Part shown: in pieces, positions 33,710 to 44,352 of the stretch | Layout of the letters: each line of letters begins with the position of its first letter | Position numbering within the stretch: the stretch's first letter is position 1 | From: Gammaproteobacteria bacterium | GTDB taxonomy: Bacteria; Pseudomonadota; Gammaproteobacteria; Pseudomonadales; Pseudohongiellaceae | NCBI GenBank assembly: GCA_009844085.1 | Contig: VYCF01000017.1 | Span: 1 to 64,000, forward strand | Reading direction: 5' to 3' | DNA length: 64,000 nt | Program-made: the position numbers and the translations under genes | The notes under the pieces: model-generated | Database searches by the model: none | What the model was told of the DNA's origin: nothing | What the model saw: the letters and a program-made list of their open reading frames with translations, nothing else

Positions 33710-34543
33710 ATGTTGCGCGGCCTTGCCGAATTCGTAATGGCAGGACGCAAACAGGCCGTGCTGGCTATCGTTCTGCTCGGCCTGCCGCCGCTGGTGAATC
33801 TGCTGACGCCCGCGCTGGTGGCGATGGTGGGAATGCGCAAGGGCATGACGGCGGGGTCGGCCATGTTGCTCTGGGCGTTGTTGCCGGCCGGCGTCTGGTT
33901 GCTGCTTTGGGGAAACTCGTTCCCGCTGCTGCTGTTGTTCGGCGTCTTCGTGCTCGCGGCCGTGTTGCGGGCCACGGAGTCCTGGCAGAATGTGCTGCTT
34001 GCGGGAATCGGCGTCGGCGCGATGTTCGAGTTTTATCTGCGCGCCCAGCCGGCCATGCTCGACCTGGTGTTCGAGCAACTGGAACTGTACGTCCGCGCCA
34101 ATAATCTGGAAGACGTGCAACTCGATGATGTGCGGGAGGTGATGACCACCTTCCTGGCCGCGTTCTACATGGCCCTGTCGGTTGCGTTGCTGATGCTGGG
34201 GCGGTCGATGCAGGCGATGTTGTACAACCCGGGCGGATTCCAGGAGGAATTTCATGCCTTGCGGATCGGTCAAACCACGACGCTTGTCCTGGTTGGCATG
34301 ATCCTGCTGGTCAACATCGTGGAAGGCCTGCCGGAGGCGTGGATTTTCTATCTGGCCGCGCCCTTCGCGTTCGCCGGGCTGGCCCTGGCTCACGCGCTGG
34401 TGGCCCGGAAGAGCGCTTCGGTCTTCTGGCTGGTAGCGATGTACATGTTGCTGATTTTCCCCACCATGATGTACCTGCTCATCCTGGTGGCGATCGTCGA
34501 CAGTTGGTATGACTTTCGCGCGCGCGTGCCGAAAAGCAGTTGA
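33710..34543 (+). CDS. DUF2232-like polytopic membrane protein
   Basis: 277 residues with about seven or eight hydrophobic helices (for example QAVLAIVLLGLPPLVNLL, MLLWALLPAGVWLLLWG, LVLVGMILLVNIVEG, MYMLLIFPTMMYLLILVAIV). A membrane protein of this kind between rpsR and rplI is common in gammaproteobacteria and is annotated as DUF2232 or YybS-like, function unknown. It starts 6 nt after rpsR and is clearly in the ribosomal operon. Confidence 0.85.
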   Translation: MLRGLAEFVMAGRKQAVLAIVLLGLPPLVNLLTPALVAMVGMRKGMTAGSAMLLWALLPAGVWLLLWGNSFPLLLLFGVFVLAAVLRATESWQNVLLAGIGVGAMFEFYLRAQPAMLDLVFEQLELYVRANNLEDVQLDDVREVMTTFLAAFYMALSVALLMLGRSMQAMLYNPGGFQEEFHALRIGQTTTLVLVGMILLVNIVEGLPEAWIFYLAAPFAFAGLALAHALVARKSASVFWLVAMYMLLIFPTMMYLLILVAIVDSWYDFRARVPKSS

Positions 34544-34572
34544 GCGAAGCGGAGTGAATTGAGGAATATGCA

Positions 34573-35178
34573 ATGAACATAATTCTGCTGGAAAAAATCG
34601 CCAAGCTCGGCGACATCGGCGAGGCTGTCAAGGTCAAGTCCGGCTACGCCCGGAACTTCCTGTTTCCACAGGGCAAGGCCGTCCCCGCGACCAAGGCGAA
34701 CCTGGAACAATTCGAGCAGCGCCGCGCGGAACTGCTCGCCGCGCACAACGAGAAGATCGCCCACGCCCAGACCCGGGCCGGGAAGCTGGCGGGAGTATCC
34801 ATAGCCATCGAAGTCAACGCCAGCGACGAAGGCCGCCTATTCGGTTCGGTCGCTGCCCGCGACGTCGCCGAAGCCGTCAACGAGAAGGCCGGCAGCGACC
34901 TCGCCAGATCCGAAGTGATCCTGCCCGGCGGCTCGATTCGCCAATGCGGCGACTACGAAGTCATCGCCGATCTCGGCTTCGAAGTGACCGCGACTTTCGC
35001 GCTATCGGTCATCAGCCGCGGGGCTCCGGTGCAGTTCGATGACGAAGAGGGCGAAGCCGAATCCGAACCCGAAGCGGCAGCCGAAGCATCGGCCGACGAA
35101 AGCGCCGAAATAGCAGCGGAAGCCCTCGCTGACGAACCCGAGACCGCCTCGGACGAAGAAGAAAAGCCGGCGGAGTAA
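34573..35178 (+). CDS. rplI: 50S ribosomal protein L9 with acidic C-terminal tail
   Basis: 201 residues against the usual 149. Residues 1-150 are standard L9: NIILLEKIAKLGDIGEAVKV, then SGYARNFLFPQGKA, the connecting helix and a C-terminal domain. Beyond residue 157 is a Glu/Ala/Asp tail (DDEEGEAESEPEAAAEASAD). Both S6 and L9 of this genome carry such tails. dnaB, normally next, lies 7.7 kb away because of an insertion. Confidence 0.97.
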   Translation: MNIILLEKIAKLGDIGEAVKVKSGYARNFLFPQGKAVPATKANLEQFEQRRAELLAAHNEKIAHAQTRAGKLAGVSIAIEVNASDEGRLFGSVAARDVAEAVNEKAGSDLARSEVILPGGSIRQCGDYEVIADLGFEVTATFALSVISRGAPVQFDDEEGEAESEPEAAAEASADESAEIAAEALADEPETASDEEEKPAE

Positions 35179-35181
35179 CCT

Positions 35182-35226
35182 GTAGGGGCTGGGCATGCCC
35201 AGCCCGCAATCGGACCAATCGCCTTC
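35182..35226. repeat. REP-like palindrome, second copy of MITE half
   Basis: It begins 3 nt after the rplI stop. GTAGGGG is followed by the 20-bp palindrome centred on GCATGC, then CGG-CAATCGCCTT-type sequence, matching 28685-28728 closely. Only this half of the element is present, without the terminal inverted repeats. It could also protect or end the rplI message. Confidence 0.7.
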
Positions 35227-35258
35227 TTGAGGACAATTTTTTACTGATTTACCAGCCG

Positions 35259-35281
35259 TTGCGTCCAAATGTGACGCAACA
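35259..35281. repeat. Stem-loop upstream of small cysteine-rich gene
   Basis: GTTGCGTC-N7-GACGCAAC is a perfect 8-bp inverted repeat, 59 bp before the next start. It may be an operator or a transcript structure. Confidence 0.4.
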
Positions 35282-35339
35282 GGCGTGTAGCTTGAGGGAT
35301 AAGCAAATTCCCGACGAAGTTCCACGAGGTAAAGTCAGC

Positions 35340-35594
35340 ATGAAACAACACTCCAAAGTCGCTGCTAAATATGGCGACGGATCGAAGAAATACTTGGCCG
35401 TTTGCGGCAAATGGATTGACAAAAAGGCCTTCAAGCGCGTACCAACCTGCAAGAAGTGCCTCGATCCTTTCAAATGCGACCGCCAAGTCCTCTGCCTTAA
35501 GTCGGCAAGGAATCCCGAAGCAAACGAGGTTCCTGGAGAAATCGAGTCCGCGAAGGCCGAGAAGCTGCTGGCGGACTTGCTCATCGCCGCTTGA
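35340..35594 (+). CDS. Small cysteine-containing hypothetical protein
   Basis: 84 residues, basic. KYLAVCGKWIDKKAFKRVPT is followed by CKKCLDPFKCDRQVLCLKSA, giving five Cys in about 35 residues and suggesting a small zinc site (CxxC plus two more). GAGGTAA precedes ATG 35340. It is the first gene of the insertion between rplI and dnaB, and converges on the WYL regulator. The family is not recognised. Confidence 0.55.
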   Translation: MKQHSKVAAKYGDGSKKYLAVCGKWIDKKAFKRVPTCKKCLDPFKCDRQVLCLKSARNPEANEVPGEIESAKAEKLLADLLIAA

Positions 35595-35671
35595 TCGCGA
35601 AGTTATATGGTTCAGCGTAAAGGTCGAGATTATCCGGGTTACGGGAGACTGCAAAGACCAGATTCATCCGG

Positions 35672-36697
35672 TTAGTCGTCCCGATGATGATTCGCCAAGG
35701 TATCGCACATCCGCGTCATCTGCTCACGCAACTTTGCCGGCTTCAGGATTTGCACGCTCTCGCCCCAAGTCACCAAGTGCCAGCACATCTCGTTCAGGCC
35801 GCCTGCCTTGAAGCGCACGGTGACCGTGCCGTTTTCATGCCGTTCGATGGACTGATCCGGGTGGAACTGGAACGAAGCCGCATCTTTCGCCGCGACTTTG
35901 TTGAAAAGCAATTCGACCTCCACGGGCTCGTCTTGGAATGTGCCAAACGAGCGACGTGCGAAGTCTTGCAGATCGAAATCAGGGTCGCATTCAAACACAT
36001 TTCCGGTGAGGCGGACTTCACTTATATTGCTGATTCGCCATAGGCGAGTATCCGCATATCCGCTGTGCTTTCCGACCAGGAAGGGGCGGTTTCCGTATAG
36101 AAGACCGTACGGTTCGACTTTCTGTGTACTCCTTTTGCCAGAATGTCGCCCGGAATAGGAAAATTTGATCGTGCGACCACCAAGAATCGCCTCGCGCAAC
36201 AGCGAAAGCAGGGCCGGGTCGATCGGCTGCCGCGGGCCGGGACGCATCGCCAGACCTTCGGCCTGCACCAGCGTTTCCAGGTCGGAATCGATGTTTGCAA
36301 GGCTTTCCGGGCGTTGCATGGCGCGCAATTTTGTTTCGACATCCGACAGACTGGTGGCGAGATTGCCGAGGCCTGATTGACGCAAAGCCGAGATTGCCGT
36401 TGCGAGAGAGGCAAGATTATCGGCCGTTATGGGAACAAGCCTGCGCAAGGCGTTGGACTCCAGCCGCCAGTGCAATTTATTGTCCCCGGCGGGAACGGTT
36501 TCGAGGCCCGCAAACGCCCATTCCACTGTATTGCGCATGCGCTCGGCGGTCCGTCGGCTGACCGACAGTTCCTCTTGTATCTCATCGATGGTCATGCCGC
36601 CACGCGCGGCTTGCAGGCGAATCGCAAGATCCAGAACGTCTTTTACCCGTTCGTAGCGAATTGTCGATTTCTTCTCTTGCATCTCCGAAGTCTCCAT
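35672..36697 (-). CDS. WYL-domain transcriptional regulator
   Basis: 341 residues. An N-terminal winged helix (VKDVLDLAIRLQAARGGMTI, EELSVSRRTAERMRNTVEWA) is followed by a WYL domain: TIKFSYSG, then VEPYGLLYGNRPFLVG and DTRLWRISNISEV. Here PFLVG stands at the WYL signature. A C-terminal WCX-like extension follows. WYL proteins sense nucleic acid or nucleotide ligands and often control defence loci. It lies 77 nt downstream of the AAA+ ATPase gene on the same strand. Confidence 0.9.
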   Translation of the reverse strand: METSEMQEKKSTIRYERVKDVLDLAIRLQAARGGMTIDEIQEELSVSRRTAERMRNTVEWAFAGLETVPAGDNKLHWRLESNALRRLVPITADNLASLATAISALRQSGLGNLATSLSDVETKLRAMQRPESLANIDSDLETLVQAEGLAMRPGPRQPIDPALLSLLREAILGGRTIKFSYSGRHSGKRSTQKVEPYGLLYGNRPFLVGKHSGYADTRLWRISNISEVRLTGNVFECDPDFDLQDFARRSFGTFQDEPVEVELLFNKVAAKDAASFQFHPDQSIERHENGTVTVRFKAGGLNEMCWHLVTWGESVQILKPAKLREQMTRMCDTLANHHRDD

Positions 36698-36730
36698 TTA
36701 TCGCAAGGGCAGCAGCGGAACTATACCCGC

Positions 36731-36753
36731 ACCGGGAGCATCCGGCTCCCGGT
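36731..36753 (-). promoter_or_regulatory. Stem-loop between the ATPase and WYL genes
   Basis: ACCGGGAGC-N5-GCTCCCGGT is a perfect 9-bp inverted repeat in the 77-nt gap. It has no T-run. It could attenuate read-through into the regulator, or be the regulator's own binding site. Confidence 0.45.
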
Positions 36754-36774
36754 ACGTTACTGCTCCCTGCGCCG

Positions 36775-38886
36775 CTAGCCGAGGAATCCGATGGATTTCG
36801 GGCGATTCGGCTTCGCGTCGCATTCGGCCCGCAGCATGGCCGCGAGCGTGTCGGGCTCTCCCAGGCAGCCGAGCACATCGGCTTTCTTGCGCACCACGGC
36901 AAAGTCTCCCGGCGTCAAGCCCGAGATCAGATTCAACCCGGTCGGCGGTTCCAGAGCGAAGAACTTGCCGAACGCGAAGCGAGCCTGCTCCGCCGTCAGG
37001 TAATCCAACCCGATCTTGAACGTGAAGCGCCGCAAGGTCGCCTCGTCGAGCCGGTCGACGAAGTTCGTCGTGCAGGCGAACGGCAGCGGGTGGCTTTCCA
37101 TCCAGGTCAGCATTTCATTTACCTGGCTAACTTCCCAACTTCTTTCCGCTCGTCGGCGATCCGACAGCAGCGAATCCGCCTCGTCAAAGATTAAGAAGGC
37201 TTCAGCATCGCGGGCCTCGGCAAACGCGCCGGCGATGAGCCGCTCGGTCTGGCCCACCCACATGGACTTGAGGTCCGATGCGCGTTTATGTATGACCTCC
37301 AGCCCAAGACGTTCCGCCAGGTATCTGGCGAACGCGCTTTTTCCGGTTCCCGGCGGCCCTTGCAGGCAGAGCGAAAAATCGCGTCTTGCAGTGGATACGA
37401 TTCGGCCGGCCAGCAACTCCGGGTCGGTGTCGGCCCGAATCAGGTCCAGTTCAAACTCGGCCGGGGCTTGCTGTGGCGGCTTGTTGGAACCCAGGAGTTT
37501 TGAAAGACTGCGAACGCCGAAGCGTACGGTGTCCAGGCTGCCGTCTCCTATGCGCGCCGCCGCAGTCGCACCGGCGGCCAATGCCGGCGTGGCGTCGAAT
37601 TCCCGGGCCAGTTCTCGCACTTCATTGGGTGCCGCAGCAATGTTGTTCCTTTCAAGTTGCCGGACCCAGACGCGCTCTCTGATGCTGGCATCGGGCTTGC
37701 GCAATTCCAGCGCAAACATCATGCGCCGAAGTATTGTGGGACTGACCGAAAGGGCGTCGTTCATGGTCCAGAGAATCGGGACCGGTGTTTCTTCCAGCAG
37801 CCGGTGCATGAACACCTTGGACTCGCCCTGGCGATGGCCCGTCCCGATTTTCGGCCCGAAAATCGCCGCGAGATCAAGCGTATCTCCAAGCAAATCTTCC
37901 ATCTCATCGAACAGCAACAGGGAATTGCTGTCGTTTGCGAGCAATCGCTGGGCCACGATCAACTCCTGCTGCCGGTCCTTGCGGGAAGGCTCGAAACCGT
38001 CGTCGTCCGCCTCGCCGGCGGCGTACAGCGTTACGCCAAGACGCTCGGCCAGCACTTTGCAGAATTCCGTCTTGCCGGTTCCGGGGGTGCCATATAGCAA
38101 GATGTTCACTCCTTTTGCCCGGCTTTCCAGCGCACCCTTCAATAGCGTTTCGATATGGTCCCGGTGCTTGGCGATATGGTCGAAATCGCTCCACTCCAGT
38201 TCGCTCGCCGAGGCGGAATCGAACAGGATTCGCATGATGTCCGTTGTATTGTTGCCGGGTTCGTTGACGAGCCGAAGCAGCCAGCACGGCACATCGAGGT
38301 CGCCGTCCCGGTCGATCTGGACCAGGCCCGAGCGCACCAGCGGCGAATTGGATCCCAACCGCGATTGGATGCTCCGCGGTCTGCGTCCGAGCAGTATCGA
38401 CATCACATAACCGGACACATGGAGTTGATTCATTCGGGGACCGGGCCGATCGAAAATATCGTCGATCAGAGACTCGAATGCGTAATGGGTGGCGTAACGC
38501 AGCAACAGTTCGAGCACCTCCCGGTCGAGTGCGCTCAGGCCAGTGGCCTTGCCGAGCCGACGTAGCCGCCGGGCCGTACGATCCGCACTTGGCGCTCTGG
38601 TGGGAAGTGCGGTCTGAAGCGATTCACGGACATTTTCGAGGGTTTTCGCGTTTACAGGCGTCTTCTTGTCGCGCTGTCGATTTACCTTTCGTCGGTACTT
38701 TCTCAAGTTCCTGCTGTCATGGAGCTTCGTCTCGCTTGCTTTAACATTGCACGCGTATTCGTGCTTGGGCCACTCGGCCGCCATCCATTCGACTAAGCCC
38801 TCGGCTTCCGGGGATCTGCGGTCGACTCCCGCAGCGATGTTGACGAGACAGGTTTGCAATAGGTAGCTTTCGTAAGCATTCAGCAT
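36775..38886 (-). CDS. Tandem AAA+ ATPase
   Basis: 703 residues. The N-terminal helical region (1-240) has no known domain. AAA1 has Walker A GTPGTGKT (266-273) and Walker B LLLFDEMED (Asp327, Glu328). AAA2 has Walker A GPPGTGKS (510-517), Walker B FLIFDEADS (Asp568, Glu569) and the arginine-finger region DEATLRRF (619-620). Both sites look competent, so a hexameric remodelling or translocating machine is likely. GGAGGAA lies 6 nt before the ATG. With the WYL regulator downstream it forms a two-gene unit. The substrate is unknown. Confidence 0.85.
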   Translation of the reverse strand: MLNAYESYLLQTCLVNIAAGVDRRSPEAEGLVEWMAAEWPKHEYACNVKASETKLHDSRNLRKYRRKVNRQRDKKTPVNAKTLENVRESLQTALPTRAPSADRTARRLRRLGKATGLSALDREVLELLLRYATHYAFESLIDDIFDRPGPRMNQLHVSGYVMSILLGRRPRSIQSRLGSNSPLVRSGLVQIDRDGDLDVPCWLLRLVNEPGNNTTDIMRILFDSASASELEWSDFDHIAKHRDHIETLLKGALESRAKGVNILLYGTPGTGKTEFCKVLAERLGVTLYAAGEADDDGFEPSRKDRQQELIVAQRLLANDSNSLLLFDEMEDLLGDTLDLAAIFGPKIGTGHRQGESKVFMHRLLEETPVPILWTMNDALSVSPTILRRMMFALELRKPDASIRERVWVRQLERNNIAAAPNEVRELAREFDATPALAAGATAAARIGDGSLDTVRFGVRSLSKLLGSNKPPQQAPAEFELDLIRADTDPELLAGRIVSTARRDFSLCLQGPPGTGKSAFARYLAERLGLEVIHKRASDLKSMWVGQTERLIAGAFAEARDAEAFLIFDEADSLLSDRRRAERSWEVSQVNEMLTWMESHPLPFACTTNFVDRLDEATLRRFTFKIGLDYLTAEQARFAFGKFFALEPPTGLNLISGLTPGDFAVVRKKADVLGCLGEPDTLAAMLRAECDAKPNRPKSIGFLG

Positions 38887-38943
38887 GATCAGTTCCTCCA
38901 GGGATTTTCAGGTAAGTCCACACAACAGGTTTTAAGGCTGCGT

Positions 38944-38963
38944 AAAGGCTTTTTGGAAAAGCC
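38944..38963 (-). terminator. Possible terminator after coiled-coil gene
   Basis: On the minus strand GGCTTTT-N3-AAAAGCC is followed by TTT. It lies between the coiled-coil gene (stop 39155) and the ATPase gene (start 38886); no gene was found in 38887-39154. Confidence 0.4.
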
Positions 38964-39154
38964 GGCGGCAAAACAGCCGCTGCGGCGTTTCCGACATGGC
39001 AACGGTAATTGCCGCATGTGTCAGATTTGGCCGCACTGAGGTGCCGGAAAATTCGATTTGTTCGTTTCGTGTCGATGTGGGCGCTTAACCCAAACACCGG
39101 AAGAGCAGAATGAAATGTGGCGCTGTTGTCGTTTGGGCTCCCCAGCCCGGGATT

Positions 39155-39496
39155 TCAGGGATTTTGCCGCTGCCCGCTTTCGGGCGGGTGAAAGAAGCGG
39201 ACTACTTCTTCCAATCCGCCGACGCGCACCTCCACCGCCGCCGTGCGTTCTCGCAATTGTGCGATAAGTTCGCCGTTGTGCCTGATCAAATCTGCGTTGC
39301 GGTCTATGCGTTCGCCGTTCGCGTCGATTTTTTCTTCCAGTCGCTGGACGGCGTCCGCGACGGTTGCGTCCATCTCGGATTGCGCGGACTGATACAGCAC
39401 CCACCCGCCCCCGGCGATTGCCAGCATTTGGACACTGGCGACAATCAGAATAGCGTTCAGAATACGGTGTGGCATATCGGGCATTTGCATCTGCAT
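39155..39496 (-). CDS. Membrane-anchored coiled-coil protein, copy 1
   Basis: 113 residues. One transmembrane helix (ILNAILIVASVQMLAIAGGG then WVLYQSA) is followed by a repeat-like coiled coil (LEEKIDANGERIDRNADLIR HNGELIAQL... pattern) and a C-terminal RTAAVEVRVGGLEEVVRFFH motif. It is clearly paralogous to the protein at 42155-42604. The start MQMQMPDMP has AAGGAGA upstream. No enzymatic motif is seen. A role as membrane tether, sensor or scaffold is possible. It stands divergent from the DUF1643 gene. Confidence 0.7.
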   Translation of the reverse strand: MQMQMPDMPHRILNAILIVASVQMLAIAGGGWVLYQSAQSEMDATVADAVQRLEEKIDANGERIDRNADLIRHNGELIAQLRERTAAVEVRVGGLEEVVRFFHPPESGQRQNP

Positions 39497-39550
39497 TCTC
39501 AGGGTCTCCTTGTCGAGAGTTGCATTCCGTGCACTTTCATTTATTATAGG

Positions 39551-39567
39551 TTGCCCGAAAAAGGCAA
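39551..39567 (-). promoter_or_regulatory. Conserved hairpin upstream of coiled-coil copy 1
   Basis: TTGCC-N7-GGCAA (with a GAAAAA core on the plus strand) lies 55 nt ahead of the start. The same element lies 54 nt ahead of copy 2. On the minus strand CCTATAATAAATG follows at once, so it overlaps the likely promoter. Confidence 0.5.
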
Positions 39568-39756
39568 ATTTTGGCGAAATTCGTTCAATGGCGCGTCCGA
39601 ATCTGGCGCATCTGGCCGTTAGCCTCCGAAACTACAGGCTTGCTGTTGTATTCTTGCCAAGCTTTGTAACCGGTTGACTGACCATAGGCTAACCGAGACC
39701 GGTTCGAATGTACTGGAGATTGTTTGCGTGACCAATGAAAGCGAGCAGGAGGAAGA

Positions 39757-40347
39757 ATGAACGGCGTTGATCCACTGGCCGAACTGCTGCGCCGCGCTCC
39801 GGTCGGCGCGAGGCTGGATTCGAATCGGCTCAATCGATATTCCCTTACCCGTAAAATCGCGGATGATTTCGACGGTAGCCAAGCGAACAGGCCGATTCTG
39901 TTCTGCGGCTACAACCCTTCGACCGCTGACGAAACCACCGATGACCGTACGCTCCGGCGTGAAATCGCCTTCGCCAGAGACTTGGGCGGGACTTATCTCG
40001 TCAAAGTGAACCTGCTGTCCCAACGGGCCACGAAACCGGAGAAAATTGATATCGCAGAGGCTGAGCGGAGTTTCGATGAGAACGTAACGCTCGTAACTGA
40101 ACTGGCCGCACTGACTCTTCGGGCAGGCGGAAAAATCATTGCCGCATGGGGCATCCCCAAGGGGCGGAAAAAGGTCCGCGCATTGGCGGCCAAAGCGGAA
40201 AACCTGCTTACCGGCAAAAGCGAGCTCGTCGGTCAATGGCAGACTTTCGGCCTTACCGGCAACGGCCACCCCCGGCACCCCCTCTATCTTCCCAAGACCG
40301 CGTGGAAAAACCTGATAGGTTTTGCGGTTCCTGCTGGAAGTGGCTAA
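39757..40347 (+). CDS. DUF1643 protein
   Basis: 196 residues. ILFCGYNPSTADETTDDRTLRRE and GGTYLVKVNLLSQRATKP, then AWGIPKGRKKV, and a C-terminal GHPRHPLYLP are DUF1643 hallmarks. The family resembles uracil-DNA-glycosylase-like folds and has no established activity, but it occurs repeatedly in accessory and phage-related loci. AGGAGGAAG precedes ATG 39757. The nuclease gene follows 72 nt downstream on the same strand. Confidence 0.88.
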   Translation: MNGVDPLAELLRRAPVGARLDSNRLNRYSLTRKIADDFDGSQANRPILFCGYNPSTADETTDDRTLRREIAFARDLGGTYLVKVNLLSQRATKPEKIDIAEAERSFDENVTLVTELAALTLRAGGKIIAAWGIPKGRKKVRALAAKAENLLTGKSELVGQWQTFGLTGNGHPRHPLYLPKTAWKNLIGFAVPAGSG

Positions 40348-40419
40348 GCTGCCACTGGACTTGGGTAACTGATGGAAGCGAGAAATCTCGAACAATTCTT
40401 GAGCAGTGTAGACGAGTGA

Positions 40420-41895
40420 TTGCAAGAAATGCGATTGGAATTCAAAAAAAAAGTCGAAAATCTCTTTGTTGAACTAAATCCCGCATTGGAAGCGGCGCGA
40501 AAGCTGGACCGGGAAATGAATCGTGTCTTCGCGCATCGGTTCAATGTACTCGATTACGTCCACACCAAGGAACTCGGCCTGTCACGCATTATCGCGGACC
40601 TTTTCGACCCAAATGCCAGTCATGGGCAGGGGACGTTTTTCATAAAGTCATTGTTGACCAGATTGAAGAACGAGCGTAGTTGCGTTGTTGACGAAAAATG
40701 GCTTGATTTCGATAGTAAAGGCATACATGTAAGTTTAGAAAAGACGATTAAGGCAAATCGCCGTATTGACATTTATGTGACGATTAAGAGTAAATCAAGA
40801 ACAACATACCGCCTCGCCATAGAAAACAAGCCGTATGCTGACGATCAGGAAAATCAGGTGGCAGACTATTTGAAACATCTCAAGGAAAATGAAGAAAATT
40901 TCCTATTTATTTATTTATCCTCCCGTGGTCAAAAACCTACACAGAAAAGCCTGCCGGAGTCCGAATACCCAAAGCCCGAAAACCAAGAAAAAGATGAATG
41001 GATGAGTCCCTTTAAGATTATGGCTTATCACAATGAGGCAGGTATTGCGGAAATAGAGTCCGATTCTACAGAAACGAACAATACAAGGGAACGGGGGGAC
41101 GATACAGATGCGGATGATGAACTTGCGGACTATCGCATCTCTTTTTCCTTGGCAAATTGGTTGTCTGAGTGCCGAAAGAATTGCGAAGTTGATCGTTTGA
41201 GATCATTTCTGCGTGATGCGGAACAATTCTGCATTAAGAGATTTGGAGATAGTAACATGGTAAATGATAGTGAAATGCAGGCAGTTAAGGAAGTAATTTA
41301 TTCTGGTGATATACAGAGAAATTTTGAGATCGCTATGGCAGTTAGTGGTGCATGGCCAATTTTGGAAGAAGAGTTTTATAATAAGTATGTTTGCTTTCTC
41401 AAGAGCGAGATTGAGCAAAAATTGAAAGAAGAAGAACTTTTTGAGAATTGTAAGGTAGAATGCCGTTCCAATGGAATAGGAGCGCATCAGAACGGAATTT
41501 GGATGTTCCGAGAGGCTTGGAAACAGTATGATTTAGAGAAACAGGATGGCAGAAGAACGACAGCAATATATATGAAAAATGATCATAACGGACCAAAAAC
41601 TTGGATAAGAGGAATTGCCTCACCAATTGGATTGGATGAGATGAGTGAAGTAGATAAGATCAGGCGCGAGGAACTCAAGAGTTCTTTGCAAAAAGTTTTC
41701 AAGAGAGCAACAACCGGTGATTTTTGGTTGTATTCAGAGTATGTTGATCCAAGCGTCTGGAAAAAAGAAATTCCCAAACTGGAATTAGAACTTAAAAAAG
41801 GTGGTGGAGAATTTACCAATAAACTGGTTGACAGATTTTTGGAAATAGCGCGTCTAGCGATTCCAGAGATAGACAGATTGGAGATGGGAGTATAG
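40420..41895 (+). CDS. PD-(D/E)XK nuclease superfamily protein, AT-rich
   Basis: 491 residues. The N-terminal ~150 residues match the PD-(D/E)XK_4 pattern: LGLSRIIADLFDPNASHGQG, then RRIDIYV (Asp117) and LAIENKPYADDQENQVADY, giving E135-x-K137. The C-terminal two thirds are mixed charged sequence without a recognised domain. Its base composition is visibly AT-rich, with many AAA, GAA and ATA codons, unlike the GC-rich neighbours, which points to recent transfer. TTG 40420 or ATG 40429 may be the start. Abi-like or restriction function is conceivable. Confidence 0.82.
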   Translation: MQEMRLEFKKKVENLFVELNPALEAARKLDREMNRVFAHRFNVLDYVHTKELGLSRIIADLFDPNASHGQGTFFIKSLLTRLKNERSCVVDEKWLDFDSKGIHVSLEKTIKANRRIDIYVTIKSKSRTTYRLAIENKPYADDQENQVADYLKHLKENEENFLFIYLSSRGQKPTQKSLPESEYPKPENQEKDEWMSPFKIMAYHNEAGIAEIESDSTETNNTRERGDDTDADDELADYRISFSLANWLSECRKNCEVDRLRSFLRDAEQFCIKRFGDSNMVNDSEMQAVKEVIYSGDIQRNFEIAMAVSGAWPILEEEFYNKYVCFLKSEIEQKLKEEELFENCKVECRSNGIGAHQNGIWMFREAWKQYDLEKQDGRRTTAIYMKNDHNGPKTWIRGIASPIGLDEMSEVDKIRREELKSSLQKVFKRATTGDFWLYSEYVDPSVWKKEIPKLELELKKGGGEFTNKLVDRFLEIARLAIPEIDRLEMGV

Positions 41896-41939
41896 ATTTA
41901 CGCGTTTTGACTGATCACGCCGAAGTGCTTGCCGTTCGG

Positions 41940-42125
41940 CTAGTCTGCGGGTCCGAGTATTTCCGTAAGTCTTTCCTGAAATTCTTTTGCCTTTGCTTGC
42001 TCATATGCTGGTAACGTGAAGAACAGTATTGCGACAAGCACGACCGTCCCCACAAAATGGAAAGTGAGGCCAATCAGAAGCGCATACAAGAATTCGCAAC
42101 ATTGGCATGGGTCTTTCTCTTGCAT
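41940..42125 (-). CDS. Small single-pass membrane protein
   Basis: 61 residues: a Cys-containing N-terminus (QEKDPCQCCEFLYALL), one hydrophobic helix (FHFVGTVVLVAILFF) and a charged C-terminal helix (YEQAKAKEFQERLTEILG). AAGGAGA lies upstream, and it follows the coiled-coil gene (copy 2) by 29 nt on the same strand, so the two are probably one operon and may interact in the membrane. The family is not recognised. Confidence 0.6.
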   Translation of the reverse strand: MQEKDPCQCCEFLYALLIGLTFHFVGTVVLVAILFFTLPAYEQAKAKEFQERLTEILGPAD

Positions 42126-42154
42126 AGTTCCGGATCTCCTTGGCGACTAACGAT

Positions 42155-42604
42155 TCAGGGTTCCTGTTGCAACTGATTTTCGGGCGGGTGGAAGAACCGG
42201 ACTACTTCTTCGAGGGCGCCGACGCGCACTTCCACCGCGGCCGTGCGTTCCCGAAGTTGCGTTATGAGTTCACCGTTGCGGTCGATACGTTCCGCATTTT
42301 GCATGATCAGATCCGCATTCCGAGCGATCAGTTCCGCATTGCGGTCGACGCGTTCGCCGATTTGGGCGATGAGAACCGAGTTCCGCTCCACGCGCTCACC
42401 GAGCGTGCCGATTCGTTCGCCGTTCGCGTCAATTCTCTCTTCCAGGCGCCCCACGGCATCCGCGACAGTCGCATCCATGTCCGTGATCGCTGACTGGTAC
42501 AGCACCCACCCGCCCGCGGCGGTTAAGACTAGGTGGCCTGACAGAGCGATCAGTAACGTGGTCGCGTTTCGCTGTGGTGTGTCGTCGGTTGTTGGCATCT
42601 GCAT
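42155..42604 (-). CDS. Membrane-anchored coiled-coil protein, copy 2
   Basis: 149 residues: a transmembrane helix (LLIALSGHLVLTAAGGWVLY) followed by a longer coiled coil built of repeated I-G-E-R-V-D-R-N-A-E-L-type units, and the same C-terminal RTAAVEVRVGALEEVVRFFH motif as copy 1. It is about 36 residues longer than copy 1 because of extra repeat units. The start at 42604 (MQMPTTDD) has AAGGATAT upstream and matches copy 1; the frame is open to 42622. Confidence 0.7.
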   Translation of the reverse strand: MQMPTTDDTPQRNATTLLIALSGHLVLTAAGGWVLYQSAITDMDATVADAVGRLEERIDANGERIGTLGERVERNSVLIAQIGERVDRNAELIARNADLIMQNAERIDRNGELITQLRERTAAVEVRVGALEEVVRFFHPPENQLQQEP

Positions 42605-42657
42605 CTTGGATATCCTTGGCAAGGGGTTGCTTTCCGTGCCCTTTCATATAGGACGGG

Positions 42658-42674
42658 TTGCCTGAAAAAGGCAA
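42658..42674 (-). promoter_or_regulatory. Conserved hairpin upstream of coiled-coil copy 2
   Basis: TTGCC-N7-GGCAA, 54 nt before the start, matches the element before copy 1 in sequence and spacing. CCTATATG follows on the minus strand. The rest of 42675-42834 shows no gene. Confidence 0.5.
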
Positions 42675-42834
42675 GTTTTCGACGGAAATAATTCGAAAGG
42701 CCGTGACCCGTTGAGCCGCAGTTGGCGGTTGTGGACCGACCGGCGGAAGGGTTCCCGGGACGGTGCCGGCGAATTGCATCGCAGGTCGGGCATATTGCCG
42801 GTCTTTGTAGTACACTGCCATTGCGGCAGCGTTT

Positions 42835-42862
42835 TTGCGCTCCTGTAACATATTGATATAAA
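42835..42862 (+). promoter_or_regulatory. Promoter of dnaB
   Basis: TTGCGC and TATAAA are separated by 16 nt in an AT-rich island, 65 nt before the dnaB start. dnaB therefore has its own promoter, as expected now that it is separated from rplI. Confidence 0.5.
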
Positions 42863-42927
42863 TAGATAATTTCGGCAGCCGAGCGAGCCCGCCAATTTGG
42901 GCCGCACCACCGCCGGAAGGTCGGATC

Positions 42928-44352
42928 ATGGCCACAGCAGCGCAACCCTTCCCGGATCCCAGCGAAGACTCCGAATCGCGGCAACTCAGCGTTCCTCCGC
43001 ATTCCCGCGACGCCGAACAGGCAGTTCTCGGCGGGCTGATGCTCGTTGGCGAGAGTTGGTTCGAGGCATCGGATCTGCTGCTCGCCGAAGACTTCTATTT
43101 CCCCGAGCATCGTCAAATCTACGAGGCAATGCTGGAGCAGGACAGGGACGGCAAACCCATCGACACGCTGACCCTGGCCGAGTTGCTGATTTCCCATGGA
43201 AAACTGGAAGCCGCCGGGGGTGCGGGTTATCTCGGCGATCTTGCGGAGAACGCCCGCGGCACGGCGAATCTGCGGCACTACGCTGAAATCGTTCACGACC
43301 GGGCCGTGTTGCGCAAGCTGATCGGCGCCGGCAATAAGATCATCGACAATTGCTACAACACCGAAGGCGCTCCGGTCACGGAAATTCTCGACCAGGCCGA
43401 ACAGCGGATATTCGGCATCGCCAATGAGCGTCCCAAGGACAAGGGACCCGAAGCGCTCAATCCATTGCTGGGTAAAGCCATGGATCGAATCGAGGAGTTG
43501 AGGACATCGGGTTCCGATCTCACCGGCATGTCCAGCGGTTTCGTCGATCTAGACAGAATTACTTCCGGCTGGCAGAAATCCGATCTCATCGTGGTAGCAG
43601 GCCGGCCGTCCATGGGCAAGACGGCGTTTGCCATGAACGCAGTCGAACACGCAATTTTGCATCAGGAACTGCCAGTGCTCGTCTTCAGCCTCGAAATGCC
43701 GGCGCAAAGCCTGATCTTTCGTATGCTCTCCTCGGTCGGGCGCATCGATCATTCGAAAATCCGGGTCGGTAAGCTGTCCGCCAATGAGCTTTCCAAACTG
43801 GATGGGACCATGCGCCGGCTGAAGGACAAACCCTTGTATATCGATGACGCTTCCGGACTCTCGCCAACCGACATGCGCGCCCGCGCGCGCCGCATTTGCC
43901 AGCAGCATGACGGCGAGCTGGGACTTATCGTGGTGGACTATCTGCAACTCATGCACCTGAGTAGAACGACGGAAAACCGCGTCGGAGAAATCTCGGAGAT
44001 TTCCAGGTCCATGAAACTGATGGCGCGTGAGTTCGAATGCCCGGTGATGGCGCTGTCGCAATTGAATCGTGGCCTCGAACAACGGCCGAACAAGCGACCG
44101 ATCATGTCGGACCTGCGCGAATCCGGCGCCATCGAGCAGGACGCGGACCTGATCGTTTTTCTATATCGCGAAGAGGTATATAAGAAGGAAGACACCAAGG
44201 AAGAAGACAAGGGAGTTGCCGAAGTCATCATTGGCAAGCACCGCAACGGCGAAATCGGAACCGTGAAACTGAGTTTCCTGCACAATCTCACAAAATTCGA
44301 AAACCTTGCGAGGCAGGACGATTTCTCCCGCTATCACGATCCGCAAGCATGA
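42928..44352 (+). CDS. dnaB: Replicative DNA helicase DnaB
   Basis: 474-residue hexameric helicase. The N-terminal domain (HSRDAEQAVLGGLMLVGESW) binds primase, and the RecA-like C-terminal domain has Walker A GRPSMGKTAF, Walker B LIVVDYLQLM, ALSQLNRGLEQRPNKRP and the DLRESGAIEQDAD arginine-finger region. It unwinds the fork in 5'-3' direction. There is no intein. It overlaps alr by ATGA, the usual dnaB-alr order. Confidence 0.97.
   Translation: MATAAQPFPDPSEDSESRQLSVPPHSRDAEQAVLGGLMLVGESWFEASDLLLAEDFYFPEHRQIYEAMLEQDRDGKPIDTLTLAELLISHGKLEAAGGAGYLGDLAENARGTANLRHYAEIVHDRAVLRKLIGAGNKIIDNCYNTEGAPVTEILDQAEQRIFGIANERPKDKGPEALNPLLGKAMDRIEELRTSGSDLTGMSSGFVDLDRITSGWQKSDLIVVAGRPSMGKTAFAMNAVEHAILHQELPVLVFSLEMPAQSLIFRMLSSVGRIDHSKIRVGKLSANELSKLDGTMRRLKDKPLYIDDASGLSPTDMRARARRICQQHDGELGLIVVDYLQLMHLSRTTENRVGEISEISRSMKLMAREFECPVMALSQLNRGLEQRPNKRPIMSDLRESGAIEQDADLIVFLYREEVYKKEDTKEEDKGVAEVIIGKHRNGEIGTVKLSFLHNLTKFENLARQDDFSRYHDPQA

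Follow-up and report, generated by a model that had tools for sequence, protein, structure and literature searches.

An island between rplI and dnaB of a Pseudohongiellaceae bacterium pairs a tandem AAA+ ATPase with a DriD-like WYL regulator and carries three operators of the DriD type

The window analyzed here, 64,000 nucleotides of contig VYCF01000017.1 (assembly GCA_009844085.1) from a gammaproteobacterium of the Pseudohongiellaceae, contains an island of eight genes inserted between rplI and dnaB. The insert is a composite cassette with an ATPase-WYL gene pair as its core, and not one co-inherited system. Its unity is regulatory: an operator of the type bound by DriD of Caulobacter crescentus is found before three transcription units and nowhere comparable in the rest of the window. 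Judged from the sequence, these three main units look like one DriD-type regulon, and we consider it probable that they are controlled by the WYL protein of the cassette itself through operators centred on the -35 region. What the computations show is the gene content, the insertion, the pairing and coevolution of ATPase and WYL protein, the operators with their fixed -10 element, and the enrichment of nuclease families. The genes of the island are the following:

35340-35594, plus strand: small Cys-rich protein, 84 amino acids from the ATG; open frame, no family over the cut-off
35672-36697, minus strand: DriD-like WYL regulator with helix-turn-helix (HTH), WYL and WCX domains (Pfam, phmmer)
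36775-38886, minus strand: tandem AAA+ ATPase, Cdc48/p97-like (two AAA stretches, Foldseek)
39155-39496, minus strand: mcc1, encoding an N-terminal membrane helix plus a coiled coil, family unnamed
39757-40347, plus strand: DUF1643 protein (PF07799, 4.5e-24)
40420-41895, plus strand: protein of the PDDEXK_4 nuclease family (PF14281, 3.7e-28; PADLOC PDC-S26, 2e-30)
41940-42125, minus strand: small membrane protein, 61 amino acids, without a Pfam family
42155-42622, minus strand: mcc2, a paralog of mcc1

All eight genes are open and positioned as described in the initial annotation of this DNA, and Pfam agrees with the gene content given there. No Pfam family above the cut-off was found for the mcc1, mcc2, small membrane and Cys-rich proteins, and Rfam gave no match over the gathering score within 34000-44000.

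Three strong operators are present in the window, all inside the island, when scored with a 36-column matrix that was trained on 56 sites with the window excluded:

35259..35279, plus strand: TTGCGTCCAAATGTGACGCAA, 22.0 bits, -10 element TAGCTT at 35288-35293; promoter of the small Cys-rich gene
39016..39036, minus strand: GTGCGGCCAAATCTGACACAT (as read on the minus strand), 21.4 bits, -10 element TACCGT at 39007-39002; promoter of the AAA-WYL unit
39591..39611, plus strand: GCGCGTCCGAATCTGGCGCAT, 30.7 bits, -10 element TAGCCT at 39620-39625; promoter of the DUF1643-PDDEXK_4 unit

The next matches in the window score 11.3 bits, on the opposite strand of the 39591 operator and facing mcc1, and 9.2 bits (35696, minus strand); the 39591 operator is possibly divergent to mcc1 too. 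As a control, reversed sequence (1.2 Mb) contains three matches of at least 11 bits and one of at least 15. In 40 copies of the window generated with an order-2 Markov model the maximum is 17.2 bits, with four matches of at least 15. These two controls were used instead of an earlier one of random 410-bp stretches, which held real sites (99% point 19.4).

The operator was discovered de novo, by a dyad search of 38 AAA upstream regions from DriD-like pairs (window included) that made no use of the DriD motif. The top dyad, CGTC-N7-GACG, occurs in 17 of the 38 regions, against a maximum of 6 in 20 shuffles. Refinement led to the consensus ATACGACCGAATCTGACGCAT and to a matrix that took in 41 of 42 regions, L086 being the sole region outside it and having no operator site. 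Of the 74 AAA upstream regions used to fit a symmetric half-site model, that model marks 64. A -10 element of the form T-A-N3-T starts 9 nt past the operator (T in 46, A in 55 and T in 52 of 57 aligned sites). The accessible text of PMC12340889 describes DriD of Caulobacter as a transcription activator that is activated by single-stranded DNA (ssDNA) and binds ATACGAC-N7-GTCGTAT, overlapping the -35 region at a fixed distance from the -10 element. The operator found here is of this published type, overlapping the -35 region at a fixed -10 distance, and the matrix assigns 26.5 bits to the DriD promoter of didA and 25.8 bits to that of CCNA_03891. For the tandem ATPase family, the operator result is strong.

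The island's own genome (G000) has two exact matches to the pattern TRCGNCCRDAWNTGNCRYA, both in the island (Cys-rich gene and AAA-WYL unit). Seven further sites, of which the island holds one, deviate at a single position; the reversed pattern used as a control yields seven in all. The sole exact match in genome G021 precedes the AAA gene, and among its eight one-mismatch sites one lies before DUF1643, where the operator scores 29.0 bits, and one near a second DriD-like WYL gene. An operator at DUF1643 is thus present in G000 and G021, both with the WYL gene, and no site of at least 9 bits was found at DUF1643 in G022 and G070, both without it.

Farther afield, a site of 23-26 bits precedes the AAA gene in all six confirmed relatives on viral contigs, and at least 20 bits are attained before AAA in L132 and L138 only of the eight plasmid ATPase loci examined (L131-L138). 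Operators are also placed before the genes of ADP-ribosylglycohydrolase (L131, 28.8 bits; L132, 33.9 bits; L182, 27.6 bits) and of DUF2779 proteins (L079, 16.3 bits; L080, 27.1 bits), and L081 and L094 have sites in the vicinity of PDDEXK_4. In L081 (G088, C1 4709418-4720181, titled Latescibacteria), two tandem AAA copies, one with a stop, flank PDDEXK_4, and four DriD-type sites are contained in this single locus. The second DriD-like WYL gene of G021 (49%; L209, 1877-4959) adjoins genes for HipA and for a membrane coiled-coil protein and has a 25.9-bit site about 0.5 kb upstream.

The WYL regulator exceeds the Pfam cut-offs for the WYL and WCX domains, and the HTH models stay below theirs. 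A phmmer search against the PDB returned 8tp8 (7e-59) and 9pfq (3e-58) as the best matches; 9pfq is DriD, and 8tp8 is identical to it in the aligned sequence. The similarity to DriD extends over nearly the full length of the protein, with the same HTH, WYL and WCX architecture, and the recognition helix, RRTAERMR, is identical in the two proteins.

Pfam recognizes AAA twice in the tandem ATPase. In both AAA domains, the principal Walker A and B residues do not vary among 44 aligned sequences, that of the window being one of them, and across 78 sequences their conservation is at least 90%, in keeping with the two competent sites that the initial annotation had read from the sequence. The protein therefore qualifies as a Cdc48/p97-like double AAA+ ATPase with two AAA domains and intact Walker A and B motifs. 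Its AlphaFold2 model (44 sequences; mean predicted local distance difference test score, pLDDT, 82.2; predicted template modelling score, pTM, 0.62) has a mostly helical N-terminal part. The top Foldseek matches of the model are the double AAA ATPases Rix7, p97, NVL and Cdc48, with TM-scores (template modelling scores) of just 0.35-0.58, the two domains taken together.

A scan of GTDB contigs yielded 360 AAA relatives, of which the best 79 loci were analyzed; their record titles assign them to some ten phyla or classes. Many of the relatives belong to MAG series whose names suggest a sponge origin, and sponge symbionts may be enriched among them. A WYL-family gene is present in 59 of these 79 loci. 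In 44 it follows the ATPase immediately in the same orientation, and in 4 it is the immediate upstream neighbour in divergent orientation. Alignment was possible for 41 of the direct-downstream WYL proteins, and 34 of these are DriD-like (>45% identity to the window WYL). Usable sequence was available for 50 AAA-WYL pairs, window included; the WYL protein is DriD-like in 39 and distant in 11. The correlation between the distances of the two proteins is r = 0.86 in the 39 DriD-like pairs, the window's among them (highest value in 5000 permutations, 0.28), and r = 0.63 in all 50 (permutation maximum 0.34). The pair is thus conserved independently of the rest of the island, a point that the initial annotation had raised.

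The pair travels on mobile DNA as well. The WYL gene lies directly behind AAA in the six viral-contig relatives, one of them truncated at the end of the locus. On plasmids, 136 records match AAA and 12 cover at least 80% of it. The WYL gene directly adjoins AAA in L131, L132, L134, L135 and L136, is one gene away in L137 and 4.1 kb off in L138, and was located by tblastn beside AAA in the unannotated L133. A family of 180 amino acids behind the WYL gene in six loci has no Pfam match. An ATPase-WYL pair of this kind was not found among the matches listed in the accessible open-licence PMC literature, and its novelty is provisional; the terms 'DriD-like', 'DriD homolog', 'DriD family' and 'DriD ortholog' are absent from the open-licence PMC papers.

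In the window, 7.75 kb separate the stop of rplI (35178) from the start of dnaB (42928). At 18 of 20 same-genus sites fetched, the matches of the two genes are 0.15-0.94 kb apart, and the 7.7-kb gap noted in the initial annotation is indeed unusual. The gene order rpsR-membrane gene-rplI-dnaB is kept at all 19 same-genus sites with rplI on the contig. In G022, the closest by dnaB DNA among 31 genomes compared, 2.2 kb between rplI and dnaB hold mcc-DUF1643-mcc only, and in G070 the site holds one mcc gene and DUF1643; DUF1643 thus occupies the site without the ATPase in both. From dnaB outwards, the G021 insert reads mcc-PDDEXK_4-DUF1643-mcc-AAA-WYL-mcc, up to where the contig stops before rplI. 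Because the content varies among G021, G022 and G070, we regard rplI-dnaB as an occupied site at which modules are gained and lost separately.

The same separation is evident on a wider scale. Within the genus, full-length AAA is present in 2 of 25 genomes (own included), WYL (E <= 1e-15) in 3 of 61, DUF1643 in 37 of 61 (four close), and matches to the PDDEXK_4 protein in 3 of 61. In the 79 ATPase loci searched by tblastn with the window proteins, DUF1643 and mcc genes appear in L052 only and PDDEXK_4 in 7, leaving 72 without it. The proposal that the eight genes constitute a single co-inherited system is ruled out by this separation of its members across the 79 loci and the same-genus genomes.

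In G021, the AAA, WYL and DUF1643 proteins are 80-85% identical to those of the window, as against 41% for PDDEXK_4 (46% over a shorter stretch), which points to a swapped or fast-evolving nuclease. Partners of the ATPase change between loci: Pfam finds PDDEXK_4 in 2 and ADP-ribosylglycohydrolase in 3 of 39 downstream neighbours, DUF2779 proteins neighbour the ATPase in 10 of the 79 loci, a pair that we read as AddB/AddA-like (PDDEXK_1 plus UvrD) does so in 4, and RtcB is among the partners around related regulators. Nuclease proximity was controlled in 36 whole AAA-holding genomes, which stand for 36 of the 79 loci and were mostly picked for long contigs. DUF2779 matches lie near AAA in 5 of 14 cases within 5 kb and 7 of 14 within 10 kb (0.04 and 0.08 expected), and PDDEXK_4 matches, 28 of 30 of which exceed the cut-off, in 5 of 30 and 6 of 30 (0.09 and 0.16 expected); some of the 36 genomes are related, which makes the Poisson values too small. 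Judged by record titles, the PDDEXK_4 cases near AAA are spread over four phyla.

Relatives of DUF1643 occur in 118 phage records; in viral contigs two stretches matched, neither of which was confirmed. Its AlphaFold model, built on three sequences, is unusable (mean pLDDT 43.6). The family may have a uracil-DNA-glycosylase-like motif.

The Cys-rich protein, apparently the weakest member of the island, is found in 2 of 61 same-genus genomes (its own and G050) and, by tblastn, in none of the 79 ATPase loci. The G050 homolog is 48% identical, has a 36.1-bit operator directly upstream and is separated from a WYL gene by about 2.1 kb. This locus (L226, 6752-10089) comprises WYL, RtcB, SpoU-methylase and Cys-rich genes (Pfam for RtcB and SpoU), and a second operator, of 33.4 bits, is located at the SpoU-methylase gene. 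The G050 WYL protein is 36% identical over 262 residues, in a frame with a stop in the search alignment. The G050 operators and WYL gene provide an independent check for the Cys-rich gene, and the locus is a possible RNA-repair version of the regulon.

The mcc genes have a conserved upstream block of their own. Relatives are present in 3 of 8 genomes searched (G000, G021 and G022) and also at the rplI-dnaB site of G070; G000 has two copies, and in G021 three flank modules and one is stray elsewhere. The copies of the window and of L142, L139 and L174 have about 75 bp of upstream sequence in common, including a palindrome that, in an alignment of 8 mcc copies with flanks, is placed in the window as follows:

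39551..39567: TTGCC-N7-GGCAA palindrome in the upstream block of mcc1
42658..42674: TTGCC-N7-GGCAA palindrome in the upstream block of mcc2

The right arm is broken in both mcc copies of G022, which has no WYL gene. The palindrome was considered as the WYL operator and dropped, since it differs from the operator found de novo. The mcc genes may be building blocks of mobile units. Proteins reminiscent of mcc, small coiled coils with a hydrophobic stretch at the C terminus, are encoded near the ATPase in L079, L080, L083 and L098, and one of them weakly matches CCDC90-like, below the cut-off. No tblastn match of the small membrane protein was found in the 79 ATPase loci or the G021 contig.

We infer the following scheme for the ligand and activation of the WYL protein, the substrate of the ATPase, the activity of the nuclease and defence as the purpose. 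The WYL domain would most likely bind a nucleic-acid signal of damage or invasion, and by analogy with DriD the ligand of first choice would be ssDNA. The liganded regulator would bind the three operators and recruit RNA polymerase, and the Cys-rich, ATPase-WYL and DUF1643-PDDEXK_4 units would switch on together. The Cdc48-like double AAA+ ATPase may then unfold or strip protein complexes, and the PDDEXK_4 protein may cut nucleic acid, with the accessory proteins acting alongside. Elsewhere, DUF2779, the AddAB-like pair, ADP-ribosylglycohydrolase or RtcB are the alternative partners around related regulators and operators. The island is thereby a candidate damage- or infection-triggered defence module. 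The initial annotation had called it an undescribed, possibly defence locus with ingredients typical of anti-phage systems. The reading as an undescribed, defence-like locus holds, in that the eight proteins complete no known system, and the anti-phage role is kept here as a prediction from sequence.

More tentatively, and with less than even confidence, we entertain a cross-phylum immune network independent of the SOS response, in which mobile DriD-type activators would drive exchangeable effector cassettes through one operator code, induced by ssDNA during infection or plasmid entry. Its effectors would include the double AAA+ ATPase, PDDEXK_4, the DUF2779 and AddAB-like nucleases, ADP-ribosylglycohydrolase, the RNA ligase RtcB and the Cys-rich protein. 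If true, the proposal would bear on how inducible immunity genes are turned on: it would tie an ssDNA-sensor family of solved structure to mobile ATPase-nuclease cassettes in several phyla, would explain the joint action of genes that do not strictly co-occur, and would make the operator usable for finding further members by sequence alone.

Several observations weigh against control of the cassette by a DriD-type activator, or limit its reach. The matrix finds no operator for mcc2 and the small membrane protein, and gives just 3.7 bits to bapE, a known DriD promoter. The expression that selected the 56 training sites was composed after the sites, including those of the window, had been viewed. 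Among the 33 upstream regions from loci that lack a DriD-like WYL gene, 4 score above 16. The DriD residues that contact RNA polymerase, R120, R121, R122, P125 and E128, correspond to L, A, N, S and E here, so that one of the five named residues is kept; because these contacts are mostly lost, we call the regulator DriD-like and not DriD. Plasmid loci L131, L133, L135 and L136 score 12.6-15 before AAA, L134 and L137 have no operator there, and none of L183-L188, which have a DriD-like WYL gene without the tandem ATPase, has a site of at least 9 bits; the operator code is therefore not general to the family. In 11 of the 50 pairs, the partner of the ATPase is a distant WYL protein whose recognition helix is different. 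Record titles place all cases of DUF2779 near AAA in the gammaproteobacteria, and the enrichment of nucleases could also be due to defence islands in general.

Upstream regions without a DriD-like WYL gene contain many more symmetric dyads of the ATGCGAC-N7-GTCGCAT-like kind, and the promoters of many ATPase partners of distant WYL proteins nonetheless bear similar dyads. Near-perfect examples at ATPase genes near distant WYL genes are L106, L111, L114, L115 and others, often with the same -10 spacing, the recognition helix being different.

Two other accounts of the cassette have to be weighed. It could be an SOS-independent regulon for DNA damage and repair rather than immunity, by which the cell survives its own DNA breaks, much as the accessible text of PMC4211646 has DriD govern a DNA-damage response in Caulobacter. 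The six further plasmid loci with a DriD-like WYL gene, L183-L188, fit this account: a TM0106 RecB-like nuclease gene directly adjoins WYL in four, three have near WYL a gene with the annotation DNA repair exonuclease and, behind it, one for a large AAA ATPase (read as SbcD/SbcC-like), and one has neither. These loci are on alphaproteobacterial plasmids, some also with TIR, HEPN or Fic genes. The patchy distribution of the AAA and WYL genes within the genus, the carriage of the pair on plasmids and viral contigs, changing partners such as ADP-ribosylglycohydrolase, and a location beside BREX-2 genes argue otherwise. Given the patchy spread, the plasmid and viral carriage and the changing partners, a conflict system is the likelier type, and we consider a repair regulon somewhat unlikely. 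The genes could also be unrelated selfish and defence genes that gathered by accident at an insertion hotspot without a joint function, as is suggested by G022 and G070 with their DUF1643 and mcc genes only, by the diverged PDDEXK_4 of G021, and by the lack of DUF1643 and mcc from 78 and of the Cys-rich protein from 79 of the 79 ATPase loci. Against such accretion stand the common operators with equal -10 spacing at three units and their absence at DUF1643 where the regulator is missing, and it appears improbable.

A further alternative concerns the regulator itself, which may be a repressor that senses ADP-ribose, cyclic-phosphate RNA ends or another nucleotide. ADP-ribosylglycohydrolase partners with their own operator (L131, L132 and L182) and RtcB partners are consistent with this, and Iyer et al. 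proposed WYL as a sensor of the ADP-ribose and RNA-end ligand class (accessible part of PMC9503650). The nearest solved relative, DriD, is however an ssDNA-activated activator, and the site geometry matches activated DriD promoters; we regard a repressor as unlikely, and activation of the three units by the DriD-like regulator remains the preferred reading.

Among known systems, IetAS, an AAA ATPase with a protease, reportedly contains a subtilase. IetA models are the best defence-library matches of the island ATPase (PADLOC, partial; NCBIfam), and an AAA ATPase core is common to both. Against the NCBIfam model IteA_antiphage, however, the AAA core alone aligns, with 88.5 bits for a cut-off of 510; the island ATPase has two AAA domains, and no protease was seen in the island or among the 25 families shown of 40 (39 downstream neighbours). 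A new IetAS member is extremely improbable, and membership was rejected on the score far under the cut-off and the protease partner not seen. The island nuclease belongs to the family of PDC-S26, whose PADLOC model it matches at 2e-30 in a library that gives no cut-off; we take PDC-S26, from its name, to be a candidate single gene, whereas the island gene follows DUF1643 behind a DriD-type operator.

BrxR and CapW, of BREX and CBASS, are likewise WYL regulators of defence genes, but neither is named among the nine PDB matches of the window WYL, of which DriD is the best; its best PADLOC matches are CRISPR-associated WYL models. A WYL gene is also present upstream of ddmDE, for which the accessible text of PMC12409362 suggests a regulatory role. 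The ADP-ribosylglycohydrolase-centred systems (Iyer et al. 2022, accessible part of PMC9503650) resemble the cassette in their WYL regulator, changing partners of the restriction-endonuclease fold and linked helicases, and the glycohydrolase itself accompanies the ATPase-WYL pair in some relatives on plasmids and viral contigs. They differ in that WYL is proposed there as a negative regulator; the term 'AAA' is absent from the accessible main text, and Pfam finds no ADP-ribosylglycohydrolase gene in the island. The closest likeness is to DriD (C. crescentus; PDB 9pfq, 7tzv and 8tp8), which agrees with the window WYL over nearly its whole length, in the recognition helix, in the operator consensus and in the -35-centred geometry, and differs in the RNA polymerase contacts. 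DriD controls didA, bapE and other chromosomal genes, whereas the window WYL is encoded in an operon with an AAA ATPase, within a mobile-looking cassette.

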